Shown here: positions 3,435-46,074 of the stretch, one piece after another | Numbering within the stretch: position 1 is the first letter of the stretch | Layout: each line of letters opens with the position of its first letter | Source: Rubrivivax sp. | Lineage (GTDB): Bacteria; Pseudomonadota; Gammaproteobacteria; Burkholderiales; Burkholderiaceae_C | DNA: 46,076 nucleotides | Reading direction: 5' to 3' | Assembly (NCBI GenBank): GCA_020848515.1 | Contig: JADLIA010000100.1 | Coordinates: 1 to 46,076 of the forward strand | Position numbers and translations under genes: made by a program | The notes under the pieces: generated by a model | What the model was told of the DNA's origin: nothing | The model's input: the letters and a program-made list of their open reading frames with translations, nothing else | Database searches by the model: none

Positions 3435-3471
3435 AATTGATAGCTGCCAGCGCTTGCCGGGCAAGCGCTGG
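3435..3471 (-). repeat. Short palindromic repeat, partial copy A
   Basis: On the minus strand it reads CAGCGCTTGCCCGGCAAGCG followed by CTGGCAGCTATCAATT. The first half is a perfect hairpin (CAGCGCTTG/CAAGCGCTG). The second half has the left arm GCTAT of the 17-bp core, but the right arm is not conserved. It lies in the leader of the FAD oxidase gene, between it and the DUF2069 gene. Confidence 0.8.
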
Positions 3472-3480
3472 ATGCCGAAA

Positions 3481-14351: not shown

Positions 14352-14999
14352 ATGATCAAGCTGTTCGTCGGCCTGGGCAATCCCGGCCCGGAATACGCTG
14401 CCACGCGCCACAACGCCGGCTTCTGGTGGATCGACCAGGTGGCGCGGCAGCTGGGCGTGCGGCTGGTGCCCGAGCGCGCCTTTCATGGTCTGGTGGCGCG
14501 CGCCAGCGTGCAGGGCGCCAGCGTGTGGCTGCTGCAGCCGCAGACCTTCATGAACCTGTCGGGCAAGTCGGTGGCGGCGCTGGCGCGCTTCTACAAGGTG
14601 GCGCCGCAGGAAATCCTGGTGGCGCACGACGAGCTGGATCTGCCGGCCGGCGAGGCCAAGCTCAAGCAGGGCGGCGGCCACGCCGGTCACAACGGTCTGC
14701 GCGACATCCATGCGCAGCTGGGCAGCAGCGACTATTGGCGCCTGCGGCTGGGCATTGGCCATCCGGGAAACCGGCAGGAGGTGGTCGGCTGGGTGCTGAA
14801 GAAGCCGCCGCTGGACGAACAGATCGGCATCGCACAGGCCATAGATCGCGCCGCGCGCGCCTTTGCGCTGCTCGCGGCCGGCGACATGACGGCGGCCACG
14901 CAGGCCATCCACACCTCCAGGCCACCACGCCCCAAGCCACCGCGCAAGCCGCCGCCTTCCCCGGCCGACGCCGGTGCCAGCGAGCGGCCCGATGTCTAG
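14352..14999 (+). CDS. pth: Peptidyl-tRNA hydrolase
   Basis: Frees tRNA from peptidyl-tRNA that has dropped off the ribosome. The 215-residue protein has the catalytic region [20 protein letters not shown], then [35 protein letters not shown] and the conserved C-terminal core. The last 35 residues are a Pro/Arg-rich tail that does not look like the family. The stop codon TAG (14997-14999) falls within the left terminus of the MITE-like element at 14995, so the element's insertion appears to have set the end of this protein. The catalytic domain is intact. Confidence 0.96.
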
Positions 15000-15185
15000 C
15001 AGACTGTCGGACCTGGAAATCGCCGGCTGCAGATCGACCGCAGCGCCCCTTTCTTGGCTTCGCCGCGTTTCGAGAGCGCCGCCTTTTTCCCCAATGGCTC
15101 GGCTGTTGGGCTGCCTATCCGGCAACAACGGGCCTCGCTGGGGCCGATGCGCGCTGTCGGCGCTCCAAGTCCGACAGCCTCCTGG
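14995..15185 (+). mobile_element. MITE-like element, copy 1 (degenerate)
   Basis: About 191 bp, starting TCTAGCAGACTGTCGG and ending GACAGCCTCCTGGT. Its ends form an imperfect terminal inverted repeat of about 22 bp. By hand alignment it is about 85% identical, over the whole length, to the reverse complement of 25590-25781; most differences are toward G or C in this copy, as if it were older. It has no open reading frame of its own worth calling and no clear target duplication. Shared internal blocks include ATCGCCGGCTGCA, TTGGCTTCGCCGC and CTCGCTGGGGCCGAT. Confidence 0.82.
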
Positions 15186-16991: not shown

Positions 16992-17212
16992 GGGCGCGAT
17001 CTTATTGAACCTGTCAGCAGCCGTTGACCGCCTGCCATCGTATGGCTTCGGTATCGTGAAGTTTGAACCTGGTCCACTGAACCTGGTGCTGAAAACACTG
17101 AAATCGGATCGGCGCTGTCCGCCCGATACGGGCACGCTGTGGCGTTGCCAATGCTCTCCACAGCACGGGCTGTTGCTGCGCCTTGCGCCTTGCATCGCCT
17201 CCCGTCGACAAC

Positions 17213-17948: not shown

Positions 17949-19085
17949 TTATAACGTTTGCCGCGCCACGAACCGCAGCAGCTGGGTGGCCAGATCGGTC
18001 TGCGCGTGCAGGCGCTGGCGGGCCGCCTGTACGCCGCGGCGCCAGGCGGGCAGGTCGGGGGCGGGCAGGGTGCCACCGTCGATGCCGTTCCAGGCGAGGT
18101 GGAACTGGCGCAGGCTGGCCGGCGCTTCCAGCCAGTCCAGAAAGGCGCGCAGCTTGGCGTGGTGGGCGTTGTCCTCGGGTTGCGGGTAGATGTGCCAGAC
18201 CAGGGGCTGGCCGGCCCACAGCGCACGCACCAGCGAGTCTTCGCCGCGCACGAAGTTCAGGTCGCAGGCCCACAGCAGTTCGTCGTAGGCGATTTGCGTG
18301 AACCGCGGCAGGTATGAAATCGATAGCTGCTGGCGCTGACTGGAAGGGCGCTGCAGCCGGTTTTCCTGCTCAAGCACCTGCTCCACCGCCTGCCTGGCGC
18401 GGCCGGCGGTGACCAGCAGGCGCGTCGGTTCGGGCGAGCCGCGCAGCTGCGCGATCCAGGTCGCCAGCGCGGGGGGCTCGTAGCAGAACAGCGAGATCAG
18501 CCGCTCGCCTTGCCAGTCGATGCCTTGCCCGGCCAGCCAGGCGCGGCGATCGAAGGCGGCCTGGCGCGCCGGCAGGTCGTCTTCGCGCAGCAGCCCACCG
18601 GTGGCCGGGGTGAAGCCGGGGTAGAAGAACCACTTGGTCCAGCCGCGGGCGGGCCCCTGCAGCACCGGCGAGGGCAGGCCGTGCATGCGCTCGACGTACC
18701 CCTCGGCGCTCAGGTCCTCGAGGTTGATCCATACCGGTGGTTTCAAGCCTTTGTGGTTCGCAGCGCTTATCCTTTCAGCGCCGGCAGCTATGAATTCAGT
18801 AGCAATCTGGCAGCCGAAGGCTTCCACCCAGACATCGGCCGGCGGCAGCCCGGCCAGCCGCATGGGGTCCAGCGGTCGCGTCCACGGCAGCACCTGCACG
18901 CCGGTCGGGCGTGTGGCCGCGGGCGCCATCCAGTCCAGCGCGCGCGCGTCGTCCACCCACAGGCGCACCTGCTGCGCACGCGCCGCCAGCGCCGTCGCCA
19001 GGCGCCAGCAGACGCCCAGGTCGCCGTGGTTGTCGATGACCTGACAGAAGATGTCCCAGCGCAGCGGGGGGTGGGGTTCGGGCAC
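17949..19085 (-). CDS. earP: EF-P arginine rhamnosyltransferase EarP
   Basis: Transfers rhamnose from dTDP-rhamnose to Arg32 of EF-P, encoded just downstream. About 378 residues from the GTG at 19085 (ATG codons at 19124 and 19151 are in frame, but the latter overlaps the uvrC start). Recognisable blocks: [20 protein letters not shown] (catalytic Asp region), [43 protein letters not shown] (conserved Glu) and PLVWHIYPQ. Two segments, about residues 95-108 ([11 protein letters not shown]) and 249-258 ([10 protein letters not shown]), coincide with copies of the short repeat at 18762 and 18313. From my memory of the family, they look like insertions in surface positions. All core motifs remain. 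Confidence 0.92.
18313..18340 (-). repeat. Short palindromic repeat, partial copy C, inside earP
   Basis: On the minus strand it reads CAGCGCCAGCAGCTATCGAT then TTCATA. The left part is fully conserved; the right arm is ATACC instead of ATAGC. It is translated within EarP. Confidence 0.75.
18762..18803 (+). repeat. Short palindromic repeat with 17-bp core (18787-18803), inside earP
   Basis: AGCGCTTATCC, then TTTCAGCGCCGGCA, then the core GCTATGAATTCAGTAGC. The layout is the same as the intergenic copy at 29082. It is in the earP coding sequence and is translated from the opposite strand as [14 protein letters not shown]. Confidence 0.78.
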
Positions 19086-23508: not shown

Positions 23509-25431
23509 ATGTTCGATTTCGTTCGCCGGCACACCAAGCTCATCATGGGCGTGCTGTTCCTGCTGATCATTCCGTCCTTCGTGCTGTTCGGCATCGAGGG
23601 CTACACCCGTTTCAACGATGGTGCCACGAAGGTGGCCACGGTCAACGGTCAGCCGGTCACCCAGATGGAATGGGACAGCGCGCATCGGCTGGAGATCGAC
23701 CGCCTGCGGCAGGGCAACCCGAACCTGGACCTGAGCCTGCTCGATTCGCCAGCGCTCAAGTACGCGACGCTGGAGCGGCTGGTGCACGAACGTGTGCTGG
23801 CCGCCGCGGCCGCCGACGAGCATCTGATCGCCACCGACGCCCGCCTGGCGGCTGAACTGCAGCGCGACCCCACCATCGCCAGCCTGCGCCGCGCCGATGG
23901 CACCCTGGACATGGAGCGCTACCAGCAGCTGCTGGCCGCCCAGGGGCTGACGCCGGCCGGCTTCGAAGCCAATGCGCGACACGAGCTGTCGTCGCGCCAG
24001 GTGCTGGGCGGGGTGTCCGAGACCGGGTTTTCCAGCGCGGCCCAGGCCCAGGTCGCCATGGGGGCGTTTCAGGAGCGCCGCGAAGCCCGCGTGCAGCGCT
24101 TTGCCCCGGCCGAGTTTGCCGACAAGGTCCAGCCGACCGACGCCGATCTGCAGAGCTACCACCAGACCCATGCGTCGCGCTACCAGGCGCCGGAAACCGC
24201 CAGCGTGGAGTACCTGGTGCTGGACCTGGAGAGCCTGAAGAAAAGCGTCAGCGTGAGCGAGCAGGACCTGCGCACCTACTACGAGCAGAACGCCGCCAGC
24301 TTCGGTACGCCGGAGACGCGGCGCGCCAGCCACATTCTGCTGAGCGCGGCGCGCGACGCACCGGCCGCCGAGCGCGAAAAGGCCAAGGCGGCGGCCACCG
24401 CCCTGCTGGCGCAGCTGCGCCAGGCGCCCGACAGCTTTGCCGAGCTGGCGCGCAAGTCCTCTCAGGACGACGCCAGCGCCGTCAGCGGCGGCGATCTGGG
24501 GCGCTTCGAGCGCAACAAGGGCATGGATCCGGCCATCGCCCAGGCCGCGTTCGGGCTGGCCAAGGTGGGCGACATGAGCGAAGTCGTGGAAAGCGATTTC
24601 GGCTTTCACATCGTACGGCTGACCGAGATCAAGGCGGCCGAGGTGCCGCCGTTCGAGAAGATGCGGGCCCAGCTGGAAGACCAGTTGCGCACGCGCCTGG
24701 CGCAGCAGCAGTTCAGTGAAATGGCCGACGAGTTCCGCAACCTGGTGTACGAACAGTCGGACAGCCTCAAGCCCGCGGCCGACAAGCTGCACCTGACCAT
24801 CCAGACGGCCGACAAGCTGTCGCCCACGCCGGCGCCGGGCGCCAGCGGGCCGCTGGCCAACCCGAAGTTCCTCGGCGCCCTGTTTGCCGCCGACGCCGTC
24901 GACAAGAAGCGCAACACCGAGGCCATCGACCTCGGCGGCAACCAGATCGCCTCCGGCCGCATCGTGTCGCACACCCCGGCGCATGCGCGCGCCTTCGACG
25001 AAGTCAGGACCGAGGTGCGTCAGGCCTTCGTGCGTGAACGCGGCGCCGAACTGGCGCGCCAGGAAGGTCAGGCCCGTCTGAAGGCCTGGACGGCGCAGCC
25101 GGCATCGGCCACCTCACTGGGTGCGGCGTTGGTGCTGTCGCGCGACGAACCCCAGGGCCAGCCGATGGCGCTGGTGGAGGCAGTGCTGCGGGCCGACCCC
25201 GCCAAGCTGCCCGGTTTCGTCGGCGTCGACCTCGGGGCGGAAGGGTTTGCCGTCGCACGTGTCGACAAGGTGCTGGCTGCGCCGACCCAGAGCGCCGAGC
25301 AGACGGCCCAGAGCCGGGCGCGCTACGACCAGCTGTGGGGTCTGGCCGAGGCCCGCAGCTACTACGAGTTGCTCAAGGCGAAGTACAAGGCCCAGATCCT
25401 GGTCCCGGCCCCTGCCCCGACGGCGCGTTGA
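23509..25431 (+). CDS. ppiD: Periplasmic folding chaperone / peptidyl-prolyl isomerase PpiD
   Basis: Membrane-anchored chaperone that helps newly exported proteins fold. The 640-residue protein has a single N-terminal membrane helix (KLIMGVLFLLIIPSFVLFGI), a SurA-like N-terminal region (VNGQPVTQMEWDSAHRLEID), a central parvulin domain at about residues 265-375 (RRASHILLS, FAELARKSSQDDASAVSGGD, DFGFHIVRL) and a long C-terminal chaperone region. The length and layout match PpiD rather than SurA. The upstream hupB gene is the same neighbour as in E. coli. A terminator follows at 25457. Confidence 0.95.
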   Translation: MFDFVRRHTKLIMGVLFLLIIPSFVLFGIEGYTRFNDGATKVATVNGQPVTQMEWDSAHRLEIDRLRQGNPNLDLSLLDSPALKYATLERLVHERVLAAAAADEHLIATDARLAAELQRDPTIASLRRADGTLDMERYQQLLAAQGLTPAGFEANARHELSSRQVLGGVSETGFSSAAQAQVAMGAFQERREARVQRFAPAEFADKVQPTDADLQSYHQTHASRYQAPETASVEYLVLDLESLKKSVSVSEQDLRTYYEQNAASFGTPETRRASHILLSAARDAPAAEREKAKAAATALLAQLRQAPDSFAELARKSSQDDASAVSGGDLGRFERNKGMDPAIAQAAFGLAKVGDMSEVVESDFGFHIVRLTEIKAAEVPPFEKMRAQLEDQLRTRLAQQQFSEMADEFRNLVYEQSDSLKPAADKLHLTIQTADKLSPTPAPGASGPLANPKFLGALFAADAVDKKRNTEAIDLGGNQIASGRIVSHTPAHARAFDEVRTEVRQAFVRERGAELARQEGQARLKAWTAQPASATSLGAALVLSRDEPQGQPMALVEAVLRADPAKLPGFVGVDLGAEGFAVARVDKVLAAPTQSAEQTAQSRARYDQLWGLAEARSYYELLKAKYKAQILVPAPAPTAR

Positions 25432-25481: not shown

Positions 25482-25589
25482 GCGACAGAGCACGGGCGGG
25501 CCTTGTGCGTCAGGCTCAGCCGGATCGAAGGCGGGAGCATCGTTGCCCGCGGCGCTGCAGGTGTCGCGCGCTCAGTGGCGATTGGTCAG

Positions 25590-25781
25590 CCTAGGAGGCT
25601 GTCGGGCTTGGAGCGCCGAAAGCGAAGATCGGCCCCAGCGAGACCAGTTCTTGCCGGATTTGCAGCCCAATAGCCGAGCAATTGGACAAAAAGCCGGTGC
25701 TTTCGAAGAGCGGCGAAGCCAAAAATGGGCCGCTGCGGTCGATTTGCAGCCGGCGATTTCCAAGTCCGACAGCCTCCTAGG
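25590..25781 (-). mobile_element. MITE-like element, copy 2, with 5-bp target duplication
   Basis: A 192-bp element starting CCTAGGAGGCTGTCGG and ending CCGACAGCCTCCTAGG. The ends form a near-perfect terminal inverted repeat of about 22 bp. It is flanked on both sides by the direct repeat GTCAG (25585-25589 and 25782-25786), the hallmark of transposition. It is about 85% identical, in reverse orientation, to 14995-15185. It has no transposase gene and no convincing ORF, so it would be non-autonomous. It lies in the gap between the ppiD terminator and tRNA-His. Confidence 0.85.
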
Positions 25782-25838
25782 GTCAGAGGCCAGAAAAAGC
25801 CCATGACCCTTTGTGCAGGGCCATGGGCGCCGATTCGG

Positions 25839-25915
25839 TGGGGTGGCTGATGGGACTCGAACCCACGACGACAGGAATCACAATCCTGGACTCTACCAAC
25901 TGAGCTACAGCCACC
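25839..25915 (-). tRNA. tRNA-His (anticodon GTG)
   Basis: On the minus strand: the extra 5' G(-1) typical of tRNA-His, acceptor GTGGCTG/CAGCCAC, discriminator C and encoded CCA. The anticodon loop TTGTGAT has anticodon GTG, and the T arm contains GGTTCGAGTCC. The remainder of the 25432-26038 gap is otherwise accounted for by a terminator and a MITE-like element; no promoter for the tRNA was identified with confidence. Confidence 0.97.
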
Positions 25916-29051: not shown

Positions 29052-29081
29052 GGCGTGTGATTATCAGACAAAAATGCCTGC

Positions 29082-29125
29082 AGCGCTTGTCCCATGTGCG
29101 CCAGCAGCTATCAATAAAATAGCGC
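29082..29125 (+). repeat. Short palindromic repeat with 17-bp core (29107-29123), intergenic, best full-length copy
   Basis: AGCGCTTGTCCCATGTGCGC, then CAGCA, then the core GCTATCAATAAAATAGC and GC. This shows the whole layout: a GCGC-type palindrome followed by GCTAT-N7-ATAGC. It lies between the EamA gene and the Rieske oxygenase gene. Confidence 0.85.
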
Positions 29126-38994: not shown

Positions 38995-39821
38995 TGCAAA
39001 AATTCAGAAACTTTTGGCCTCTGGCGCTTTTGCAGACTGCGCTGGCAGCTATCTTAACGATAGCATTTCCGGTGGCCTGGGCGCAAACCATCGTGATGGC
39101 CTCGACCACCTCGACCGAACAGTCGGGGTTGTTTGCCCACCTGCTGCCGCAGTTCCGCCAGGCCAGCGGCATCGACGTCAAGGTGGTGGCGGTGGGCACC
39201 GGGCAGGCGCTGGACATCGCCCGGCGCGGCGACGCCGATGTGCTGTTCGTGCATGACCCGAAGGCCGAGGAGCAGTTCGTCACCGACGGCTGGGGCCTCA
39301 AGCGCCACCCGGTCATGTACAACGACTTCGTCCTGGTCGGCCCGCGCAGCGACCCGGCCGGGGCGCGCGGCCGCGACATCGTGCAGGCCATGCGGCAGTT
39401 GGCGGGGGCGCACGCGCCCTTCATTTCGCGCGGCGACAAAAGCGGCACCCACAGCGCCGAACTGCGCTACTGGGCCCAGGCGGGCCTGACCGAAGCGCGC
39501 GGGCGTGGCTATCGCGAATGCGGTTGCGGCATGGGGCCGGCGCTGAACATGGCTGCCGCCAGCGGCGCCTACGTGCTGGCCGACCGGGGCACTTGGCTCA
39601 ACTTCAGGAACCGGGCCGACCTGGCAATCCTGGTCGAAGGCGACCCGCGCCTGTTCAATCCCTACGGCGTGCTGGTGGTCAACCCGGCACGCCACCCGCA
39701 GGTCAAGGCCGCCGAGGCACAGAAGTTTGTCGACTGGGTGACGTCGCCCGCCGGTCAGGCCGCCATCGCCAGCTACCGCATCGGGGGCCAGGCGTTGTTT
39801 TTCCCGGACGCGCGACCTTGA
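38994..39821 (+). CDS. tupA: Tungstate-binding periplasmic protein TupA
   Basis: Substrate-binding component, 275 residues, with a cleavable signal peptide (residues 1-30). The mature protein begins TIVMASTTSTEQSGL, the TTTS-x-x-SGL motif I associate with tungstate-binding TupA proteins, followed by VVAVGTGQALDIARRGDADVL and SRGDKSGTH. The hydrophobic core of the signal peptide (about residues 10-24) lies in a copy of the short repeat (39023-39064). The start ATG overlaps the tupC stop. Confidence 0.92.
   Translation: MQKFRNFWPLALLQTALAAILTIAFPVAWAQTIVMASTTSTEQSGLFAHLLPQFRQASGIDVKVVAVGTGQALDIARRGDADVLFVHDPKAEEQFVTDGWGLKRHPVMYNDFVLVGPRSDPAGARGRDIVQAMRQLAGAHAPFISRGDKSGTHSAELRYWAQAGLTEARGRGYRECGCGMGPALNMAAASGAYVLADRGTWLNFRNRADLAILVEGDPRLFNPYGVLVVNPARHPQVKAAEAQKFVDWVTSPAGQAAIASYRIGGQALFFPDARP
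39023..39064 (+). repeat. Short palindromic repeat with 17-bp core (39048-39064), inside tupA
   Basis: GGCGCTTTTGCAGACTGCGC, then TGGCA, then the core GCTATCTTAACGATAGC (perfect GCTATC/GATAGC arms). It is translated as LLQTALAAILTIA in the tupA signal peptide. Confidence 0.82.
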
Positions 39822-43841: not shown

Positions 43842-45011
43842 TCAGGGAACGAAGGGATTGGCGAACTCGGGGCGCGCAAGCATGCGGTCGTCCGTCAGCG
43901 CACGCAGGAAGGCCACCAAGTCGGCCTGGTCCTGCGCGTCGATGTCGATCTGATCGATCCGCGGATCCTTGTACGGGTTGGCGCGGCCGTCGCCTTCGTA
44001 CGGGCCGTTGCCGAGCACGCGGCCGCCGGCGGCATGCAGCGCCACCACCGCTTCCAGCGTGGCGACGCTGCCGTCGTGCAGGTAGGGTGCGGTCAGCGCG
44101 ACGTTGCGCAGGCTGGGCGCGCGGAACCTGCCCATGTCCTCGGGCCTGCCGGTGAATTCGAGCAAACCCCGGTTGTTGGTCGGGTAAGCACCGGTGCCGC
44201 CGATGTTGAACAGGCCGATGTTGTAGAACCCCGGCTCGCCCACGCGGCCCTGGGCGCTGACGAACGCACCGCCGCCCAGGTTGGGGCCGCTGTGGCACTG
44301 CGCGCAGAGCGCGCGCTCGCCGAAGAACAGGCGCTGGCCGCGCTGCTCGCTTTCAGTCAGCGTGGCCGTGCCGGCCAGCGCCTGGTCGTAGCGGCTGCCG
44401 GCCGCCACCAGCGTGCGCTGGAAGGCGGCGATGGCCTTGATCACGTTGTCCCAGTGGATGGGCATCGCTTCGCCGCCAAAGGCCTGGGCGAAACGCGGCG
44501 GGTAGCGTGCGTCGTCCTTCAGGCGCTGCACGATGGCGTCGCGGTTGGTGTCGTTCACACCCATCTCGACCGGCTGCTCGCCGAACAGGGGCGTGTGCAT
44601 CTGCTGCTCCAGCGTGCGCGGCGCCGGGTTGCTCCAGTCCAGCGTGGCCTGGTAGGCGGCGTTGACCAGGCTGGGTGCGTTGCGCGGGTGGTTCTGCCCG
44701 GTGGCGCCGCGCGCCACGGCGCGGCCGTCGGCGAAGGCCAGGTTGACGGCGTGGCAGCCGGCGCAGGACAACGTGTTGTTGACCGACAGGCGCACGTCGT
44801 AGAACAGGTGGCGCCCCAGCTCCACCTTGGCTGCATTCATCGGGTTGTCGGCCGGCACCAGGGGCGGCGCCAGGCCTGCCGGCAGTGACCAGGCCCAGGC
44901 TGGCGGCACCGGCGGCGGTCCTGCATCGGCGCTGTCCCCGCCGCCGCAGGCGGCAAGCGACAGCAGGGCAAGTGCGGCAGCGACGCGAGCGCGCAGCGGT
45001 GTGTGCGTCAT
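43842..45011 (-). CDS. MbnH-like di-heme peroxidase-family lipoprotein
   Basis: Predicted lipoprotein of 389 residues with two c-type heme sites, CAGCH (83-87) and CAQCH (236-240). The signal peptide ends in the lipobox SLAAC (Cys22), followed by an Asp at +6. The conserved text WSLPAGLAPPLVPADNPM then AAKVELGRHLFYD and DGRAVARGATGQNHPRN resembles MbnH, the di-heme enzyme that oxidises tryptophan to kynurenine in the copper-binding partner MbnP. No MbnP-like gene is adjacent in this window. The gene faces away from the lipoprotein at 45100; modABC lies downstream on the same strand, 71 bases on. Family likely, function inferred. Confidence 0.87.
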   Translation of the reverse strand: MTHTPLRARVAAALALLSLAACGGGDSADAGPPPVPPAWAWSLPAGLAPPLVPADNPMNAAKVELGRHLFYDVRLSVNNTLSCAGCHAVNLAFADGRAVARGATGQNHPRNAPSLVNAAYQATLDWSNPAPRTLEQQMHTPLFGEQPVEMGVNDTNRDAIVQRLKDDARYPPRFAQAFGGEAMPIHWDNVIKAIAAFQRTLVAAGSRYDQALAGTATLTESEQRGQRLFFGERALCAQCHSGPNLGGGAFVSAQGRVGEPGFYNIGLFNIGGTGAYPTNNRGLLEFTGRPEDMGRFRAPSLRNVALTAPYLHDGSVATLEAVVALHAAGGRVLGNGPYEGDGRANPYKDPRIDQIDIDAQDQADLVAFLRALTDDRMLARPEFANPFVP

Positions 45012-45099: not shown

Positions 45100-46074
45100 A
45101 TGAACATGACGGCACGGCAGGACACGGACTCTTTCTGGGCGCGCGCGCGGCGCGGGCTGCTGGTGGCTACCGGGTTTGCCTTGCTGTCGCTTGCCGCCTG
45201 CGGCGGTAACGGCGACGACGAGGTGGCCGACCGTGGCCCGACCACCATCGAGGTCCAGGCCAAGCTCAACGGCCTGTACTGGGATGCGCAGGCATCGCGT
45301 CTGTACCTGACCGACGACGAGGCAAACGTCAATGCCATCAGAATCTGGGACGGCGACGACAAGTTCTCCGTGGCGCACCAGCTGCCGGCCATGGAGGCCA
45401 ATCAGCGTCACTCGCTGGGCCAGCTCACGCGCGCTGCGGACGGCACGCTGTACGTCACGCGCTTCGGCTTCGGCAGCTACGGCACGGTGGTCGCCGTGCC
45501 CAAGTCGGGCCAACCCTACAACCTGACGGGACTGGCCGGCGACCGCCGGCGCATCGCCATCACGCCCACGGCCGACGGCAAACTGATCGACGGCTGGTTC
45601 CGGGGTGGCGGCGCGCCCGGACCGAGCGGCGTGATCAGCGAGCTGACCGTGGCCGCCGGCGGGCAGGCCAGCGAGCAGGACCTGATCACGGGCCTCAGCA
45701 AGCCTGCCGGGGTGGCGGTGGTGGGCGACCAGCTGTTCGTGTCCGACCAGGGCACGGGCAAGGTGCTGGCCTATTCGCTGGCCGCCGTGCGGGCGCAGCC
45801 GGCGAAGGCCGAGGATGGGCGCGTCGTTGCCGAGTTCATCTCCGCCGACAGCATCGATCTGATGACGGCCGGGCCCGATGGCACGCTGTTCTTCGGCGGC
45901 GGCGCCGGCACGCTGTACGCGGTGGCGCCGGACGGCAAGGTCAGGACGCTGGCCAGCGGCTGGCCCGGCATCCGCGGCGTGGCCTACGACGCGCAGAACA
46001 AGCGCCTGTTCGCGGCCGTGACGGCGCCCAACGCCGCCAGCCCGGCCACCATCCGCATCGTGCCGATCGATTGA
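45100..46074 (+). CDS. Beta-propeller-like (SMP-30/NHL type) lipoprotein
   Basis: Predicted lipoprotein of 324 residues; the lipobox is SLAAC with Cys at about residue 34, after an N-terminal positively charged stretch (RARRG). The lipid-anchor region LLSLAACGG is nearly the same as that of the di-heme gene opposite. The mature part is built of short repeats with a YWD/LYV/LFV pattern (GLYWDAQASRLYLTDDEAN, DGTLYVTRFGFGS, GDQLFVSDQGTGKVLAYSL, GTLFFGGGAGTLYAVAPDGK), as in six- or seven-bladed propellers. Function unknown. RBS AAGGA lies 8 bases before the ATG. The stop codon is at the end of the window. Confidence 0.8.
   Translation: MNMTARQDTDSFWARARRGLLVATGFALLSLAACGGNGDDEVADRGPTTIEVQAKLNGLYWDAQASRLYLTDDEANVNAIRIWDGDDKFSVAHQLPAMEANQRHSLGQLTRAADGTLYVTRFGFGSYGTVVAVPKSGQPYNLTGLAGDRRRIAITPTADGKLIDGWFRGGGAPGPSGVISELTVAAGGQASEQDLITGLSKPAGVAVVGDQLFVSDQGTGKVLAYSLAAVRAQPAKAEDGRVVAEFISADSIDLMTAGPDGTLFFGGGAGTLYAVAPDGKVRTLASGWPGIRGVAYDAQNKRLFAAVTAPNAASPATIRIVPID

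Follow-up and report, generated by a model that had tools for sequence, protein, structure and literature searches.

The window, by which we mean the whole 46,076-nucleotide stretch of Rubrivivax sp. DNA analysed here, contains a 192-bp element at 25590-25781 that lies downstream of a ppiD-like gene (SurA_N/rotamase; 23509-25431, plus strand) and is followed by a convergent tRNA-His gene (25839-25914, minus strand). The element reads CCTAGGAGGCTGTCGGGCTTGG ... CCAAGTCCGACAGCCTCCTAGG, and its ends form an inverted repeat, the right one (25760-25781, minus strand) being complementary to the left one (25590-25611, plus strand) at 21 of 22 positions. The pentanucleotide GTCAG flanks it as a direct repeat on both sides (25585-25589 and 25782-25786). 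ORFs overlapping the element gave no Pfam match, and the element itself gave no Rfam match. A sequence-only reading had described a 192-bp element with terminal inverted repeats of about 22 bp, a flanking GTCAG repeat and no ORF, and in these respects it was accurate. Being short, non-coding, bounded by terminal inverted repeats and present in dispersed copies, the element has the properties of a MITE.

Outside the source genome the recurrent unit runs from CTAG to CTAG and the bases beyond it are random, and for this reason the outermost C (25590), which is the first base of the left repeat, and the outermost G (25781) are probably parts of a target scar rather than of the element. The element proper, here called MITE1, would then comprise the 190 non-coding bp from 25591 to 25780 (plus strand), beginning with a CTAG (25591-25594) that is either the target tetranucleotide or its duplicate and ending with a second CTAG (25777-25780).

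An older MITE1 copy lies inverted at 14996-15185 (minus strand), where it is inserted at CTAG, has a right side decayed to CTGG and carries no 5-bp repeat. It is 86% identical to the first copy over 188 bp (14996-15183, the decayed CTGG extending it to 15185), in keeping with the copy of about 85% identity that had been placed at 14995-15185. The CTAG of this older copy is the source of the TAG stop codon of the pth ORF (14352-14999), and a 52-bp version of MITE1 in genome G298 (locus L070) apparently sits at a stop codon too. Other repeats in the window are a short dispersed motif, GATAGCTGCCAGCGCTTG / AAGCGCTGGCAGCTATC, present in both orientations (3436-3480, 18319-18364, 29070-29115 and 39012-39053), a 44-bp inverted repeat (44941-44984 and 45163-45206; 86%, spacing 178 bases), and a 114-bp sequence (17093-17206) that recurs with 95% identity at L036:6513-6626, where it adjoins one of the composite structures described below.

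Distribution and family of MITE1

The source genome assembly, of an Ottowia-like member of the Comamonadaceae (2.48 Mb, 186 contigs, 77% complete), holds about 15 (15-16) copies or fragments of MITE1 with 74-98% identity, and copies or parts of the element occur patchily in 13 of 100 genomes searched, belonging to 8 of 72 genera. The closest foreign copies, in a genome of another genus (G032), are up to 97-98% identical to copies of the source genome. The ppiD/tRNA-His interval of Burkholderiales bacterium 68-10, the nearest named relative (89% ppiD identity), is free of MITE1. A copy at locus L009, flanked by CTGAC repeats, has one clean empty orthologous site in genome G005, where CTGAC occurs once and a CCTAGG relic is lacking; further orthologous sites appear empty too, on loose intergenic alignments. 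A comparison of the 192-bp sequence with phage and plasmid collections gave no match. Multiple copies, near-identical copies in other genera and empty orthologous sites together identify the element, as judged by sequence comparison, as a MITE. The proposal of a non-autonomous transposable element has thus withstood both the search for copies in its own and related genomes and the comparison with empty sites. As separate observations, near-perfect palindromes of 46-52 bp that consist solely of two MITE1 ends occur in other genera (L070:1501-1552, L072 and L073), and elements of about 272 bp in another genus share the same 22-bp ends but have a different interior (L077:1501-1773 and L076).

A search of 299 genomes of the family with the 16-bp tip CCTAGGAGGCTGTCGG led to a complete insertion sequence (IS) of 1,621 bp, present in five copies in two related genera (G059 and G116), whose ends, CTAGGAGGCTGTCGGACTT...AAGTCCGACGGTCTCCTAG, match the MITE1 ends CTAG-GAGGCTGTCGGACTT. 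Its 451-aa protein (encoded at L118:288-1643) is a transposase of the IS1182 family (NCBIfam IS1182, 360 bits; cut-off 270). All five copies have CTAG at both ends, with varying sequence beyond, and in all five the base preceding the left CTAG is C. The sequence common to MITE1 and this IS is confined to about 19-20 terminal bp, at the left end of the IS. Plasmid relatives from Aromatoleum (ISAzo1), Pseudomonas, Polaromonas, Marinobacter and Methylobacter have ends of the form CTAG(G/C)AGNCTGTCGGRCTT or close variants of it, and ISKpn6 shares CTAGGAGCCTG. MITE1 therefore shares both its ends and its CTAG junctions with IS1182-family relatives, and a family that had at first gone unrecognised can now be named. 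The transposase had been expected to lie out of sight, and indeed the 77% complete source genome yielded no close IS1182 transposase. A full IS with matching ends and 5-bp duplications had been suggested as a check; the IS exists, but its junctions are CTAG and the 5-bp repeat is absent. The CCTAG tips and the 5-bp repeat also raised the idea that MITE1 itself belongs to, or derives from, the IS1380 family. This was rejected: the source genome has no PF13701 gene, a relative carries a complete IS1380 copy with an end CCTAGCCCGGATATTTCA, MITE1 lacks the IS1380-like ends CCTAGAAACGGCAGTTG and has only the CCTAG tip in common with them, and a 5-bp duplication does not accompany its copies elsewhere. 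MITE1 is an element of an ordinary, known kind, and a search of the available literature for an IS1182 MITE at CTAG returned no description of it.

The 5-bp repeat and the second MITE family, R2

In the source genome, 4 of 12 measurable MITE1 copies are flanked, at an identical offset, by a perfect 5-bp direct repeat (chance about 4e-10 with random flanks), which, together with the 15-16 copies or fragments, shows that MITE1 is not a product of chance. In a fifth copy of this genome (L003) the repeat is perfect with one extra base. By contrast, other species have about 28 reasonably intact copies that lie at CTAG but are not flanked by a 5-bp repeat (Fisher p 0.005 against the 4 of 12, with 28 taken as the comparison), and the repeat is likewise missing from the G032 copies that are 97-98% identical at best. 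A preference for longer palindromic targets was considered and rejected, as the flanks of CTAG look random in other species.

But where, then, does the GTCAG repeat come from? The source genome contains a second repeat family, R2, of 234 bp (CCTAGAAACGGCAGTTG...CAACTGCCGTTTCTAGG), which has putatively IS1380-like ends with CCTAG tips and generates a 5-bp NTSAN duplication of its own. R2 is frequent in the genus, with matches in 25 of the 60 relatives. R2 copies that lack MITE1, found in relatives, have NTSAN duplications and tips that covary as inverted repeats (CCTAA..TTAGG, CCTCG..CGAGG); the tips are therefore part of R2 and not a CTAG target. An IS1380-like IS in genome G014 has similar ends (CCTAAAAACCGCAGTTAC, 3-4 mismatches in 17 to CCTAGAAACGGCAGTTG) and NTSAN flanks (ATCAT/TTCAT), and its ORF (L101) matches Pfam PF13701 with a score of 59.3 (cut-off 34.7) and NCBIfam IS1380 with 141 bits, below the cut-off of 180.

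At four loci (L026, L031, L036 and L037) MITE1 occupies precisely the CTAG in an R2 tip (mutated to CCAG at L036), in both R2 orientations, and the one CTAG of the tip has become two. The 5-bp repeat of R2 lies outside the MITE1-R2 pair at L026 (GTCAT) and L031 (TTCAA) and is imperfect at L036; L037 begins near a contig end. Two MITE1 copies in genome G002 also adjoin R2 tips, and at L033:1965-2188 MITE1 lies within a 28-bp relic bordered at each end by ATGAT. Relics without MITE1 exist as well: CTCAG-CCTAGG-CTCAG (L174) and, beside an R2 copy, TTCAG-CCTAGG-TTCAG (L177) in the source genome, and CTGAA-CCTAGG-CTGAA (L180) in G002; further ones contain one mismatch. A CC(T/C)AGG relic also borders four R2 copies on one side. 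Among 29 genomes of the genus, the bare-relic pattern was matched in G000 (3), G002 (4), G022 (1) and G008 (1). Such a footprint is not a general product of R2 loss, as it is absent from 25 of the 29 genomes, several of which carry R2 copies. Elsewhere, a 12-bp relic, CCTGGATCTAGG, lies between GTGAC repeats (L188:8536-8557) and is possibly an R2-type scar.

CTAG itself is scarce. In 696 kb of the source genome, sampled from about 50 whole or partial contigs, 81 sites were found where 1,920 are expected, and 38 of the 81 fall in MITE1 or R2, a share that is biased upward because the sample favours contigs with copies. With CTAG depleted 24-fold, R2 tips and relics make up a large share of the targets.

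Discussion

Taken together, the data are best explained by a MITE of the IS1182 type that inserts at the rare tetranucleotide CTAG and parasitises the tips or scars of an IS1380-like MITE, the GTCAG repeat being an older, R2-type duplication; we give this reading a probability of about 0.72. MITE1 would be a non-autonomous derivative of an IS1182-family IS of the ISAzo1-like group, and we infer that a transposase not found in the incomplete assembly binds CTAG(G/C)AGNCTGTCGGRCTT ends and acts on it in trans. Insertion at the 4-bp palindrome would leave CTAG on both sides. R2, with its 5-bp NTSAN duplication, would supply many of the rare CTAGs, both in its tips and in CCTAGG relics. The window copy, with the layout GTCAG-C-CTAG...CTAG-G-GTCAG, would sit in an R2-type scar, GTCAG-C[CTAG]G-GTCAG, and GTCAG would thus date from the older, R2-type duplication instead of marking the insertion of MITE1. 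The repeat had been taken for the element's own target duplication, a view with which neither the matching IS nor the foreign copies at CTAG agree; NTSAN duplications mark the different, IS1380-like family whose tips and relics serve as targets. Since MITE1 sits in the apparent scar of an unrelated small transposon, the repeat was most likely made by that earlier element. Against this reading count the L009 site, the lack of a close IS1182 transposase in the source genome, the mere 19-20 or so terminal bp common to MITE1 and the IS, and an excess of occupied relics: these (at least 5) outnumber the bare ones found (3) by more than random insertion at CTAG predicts.

This excess keeps two other accounts of the solo copies viable. 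The first is a version of the preferred explanation, in which MITE1 did not enter a scar but replaced the R2 hairpin, leaving the R2 duplication and the outer bases in place. The IS1182-type transposase would excise the hairpin of the IS1380-like MITE at its CTAG feet and substitute its own MITE, bare CCTAGG scars being uncompleted exchanges; one transposon family would then overwrite another. We regard such an exchange as possible but unlikely. The layout of the window copy is the expected outcome of either insertion into a CCTAGG relic or exchange of R2. R2 folds strongly (z -7.3), seven of the nine bare relics are in two genomes that carry both MITE1 and R2, and the IS1182-family elements IS1272 and TnSha1, which replace or partly delete inverted-repeat targets, provide a precedent (PMC5678879, PMC4923244). 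Then again, R2 is kept intact in the composites, copies in other species lack palindromic flanks, and R2, at 234 bp, is larger than the targets of 21-85 bp that IS1272 is reported to use.

Rather less likely, in our view, MITE1 in the source genome was moved by the IS1380-like transposase once it had acquired outer CCTAG tips, and the 5-bp NTSAN repeat would then be a duplication made by MITE1 after all. ISEcp1, a member of the IS1380 family, accepts poor alternative ends, and five copies combine R2-class 5-bp repeats with an outer C..G. The single CTGAC of the L009 empty site would also fit, yet this site does not separate a relic that came first from a direct 5-bp duplication. However, the match to the R2 ends is limited to CCTAG plus about one base, the composites show insertion directed to CTAG, and near-identical copies elsewhere are free of the repeat. 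Moreover, solo and R2-tip copies are intermixed in the copy tree, where the solo copies form no lineage of their own (low support). That the element is not mobile at all, but a conserved RNA structure or regulatory element, is highly improbable, as its strong fold as DNA and as RNA (RNA z -9.4) is accounted for by its inverted repeats and it has a patchy distribution, orthologous sites that are empty where looked for and, as noted, no counterpart in Rfam.

If the preferred reading holds, a short direct repeat beside inverted ends, which is a textbook mark of transposition, can stem from an earlier and unrelated insertion, and such borrowed repeats would mislead automatic IS annotation. MITE1 and R2 would offer a natural case of one MITE family exploiting the tips of another as rare CTAG targets, and their relics may record the order of events.

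Among known systems, the ISAzo1-like group, together with ISKpn6, resembles MITE1 in its terminal inverted repeats, CTAG(G/C)AGNCTGTCGG(A/G)CTT, and in having CTAG at both junctions, whereas MITE1 lacks a transposase and has an unrelated, foldable interior. The IS1380-like elements, R2 and the IS in L101, share CCTAG tips and NTSAN 5-bp flanks with the window site but are insertion targets and belong to a family different from that of MITE1. ISPsy36 and ISPsy32, compared here by reported target alone, resemble MITE1 in using 4-bp palindromes, the IS1182 element ISPsy36 being reported at GGCC and ISPsy32 at CTAG, but differ from it in being autonomous (PMC8027508). Finally, IS1272 and TnSha1 have in common with MITE1 the IS1182 transposase family and a target choice linked to palindromic DNA (PMC5678879, PMC4923244). 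Different from MITE1 however, which uses a fixed CTAG and whose composites lose nothing, IS1272 deletes the hairpins that it targets, which it chooses regardless of sequence.
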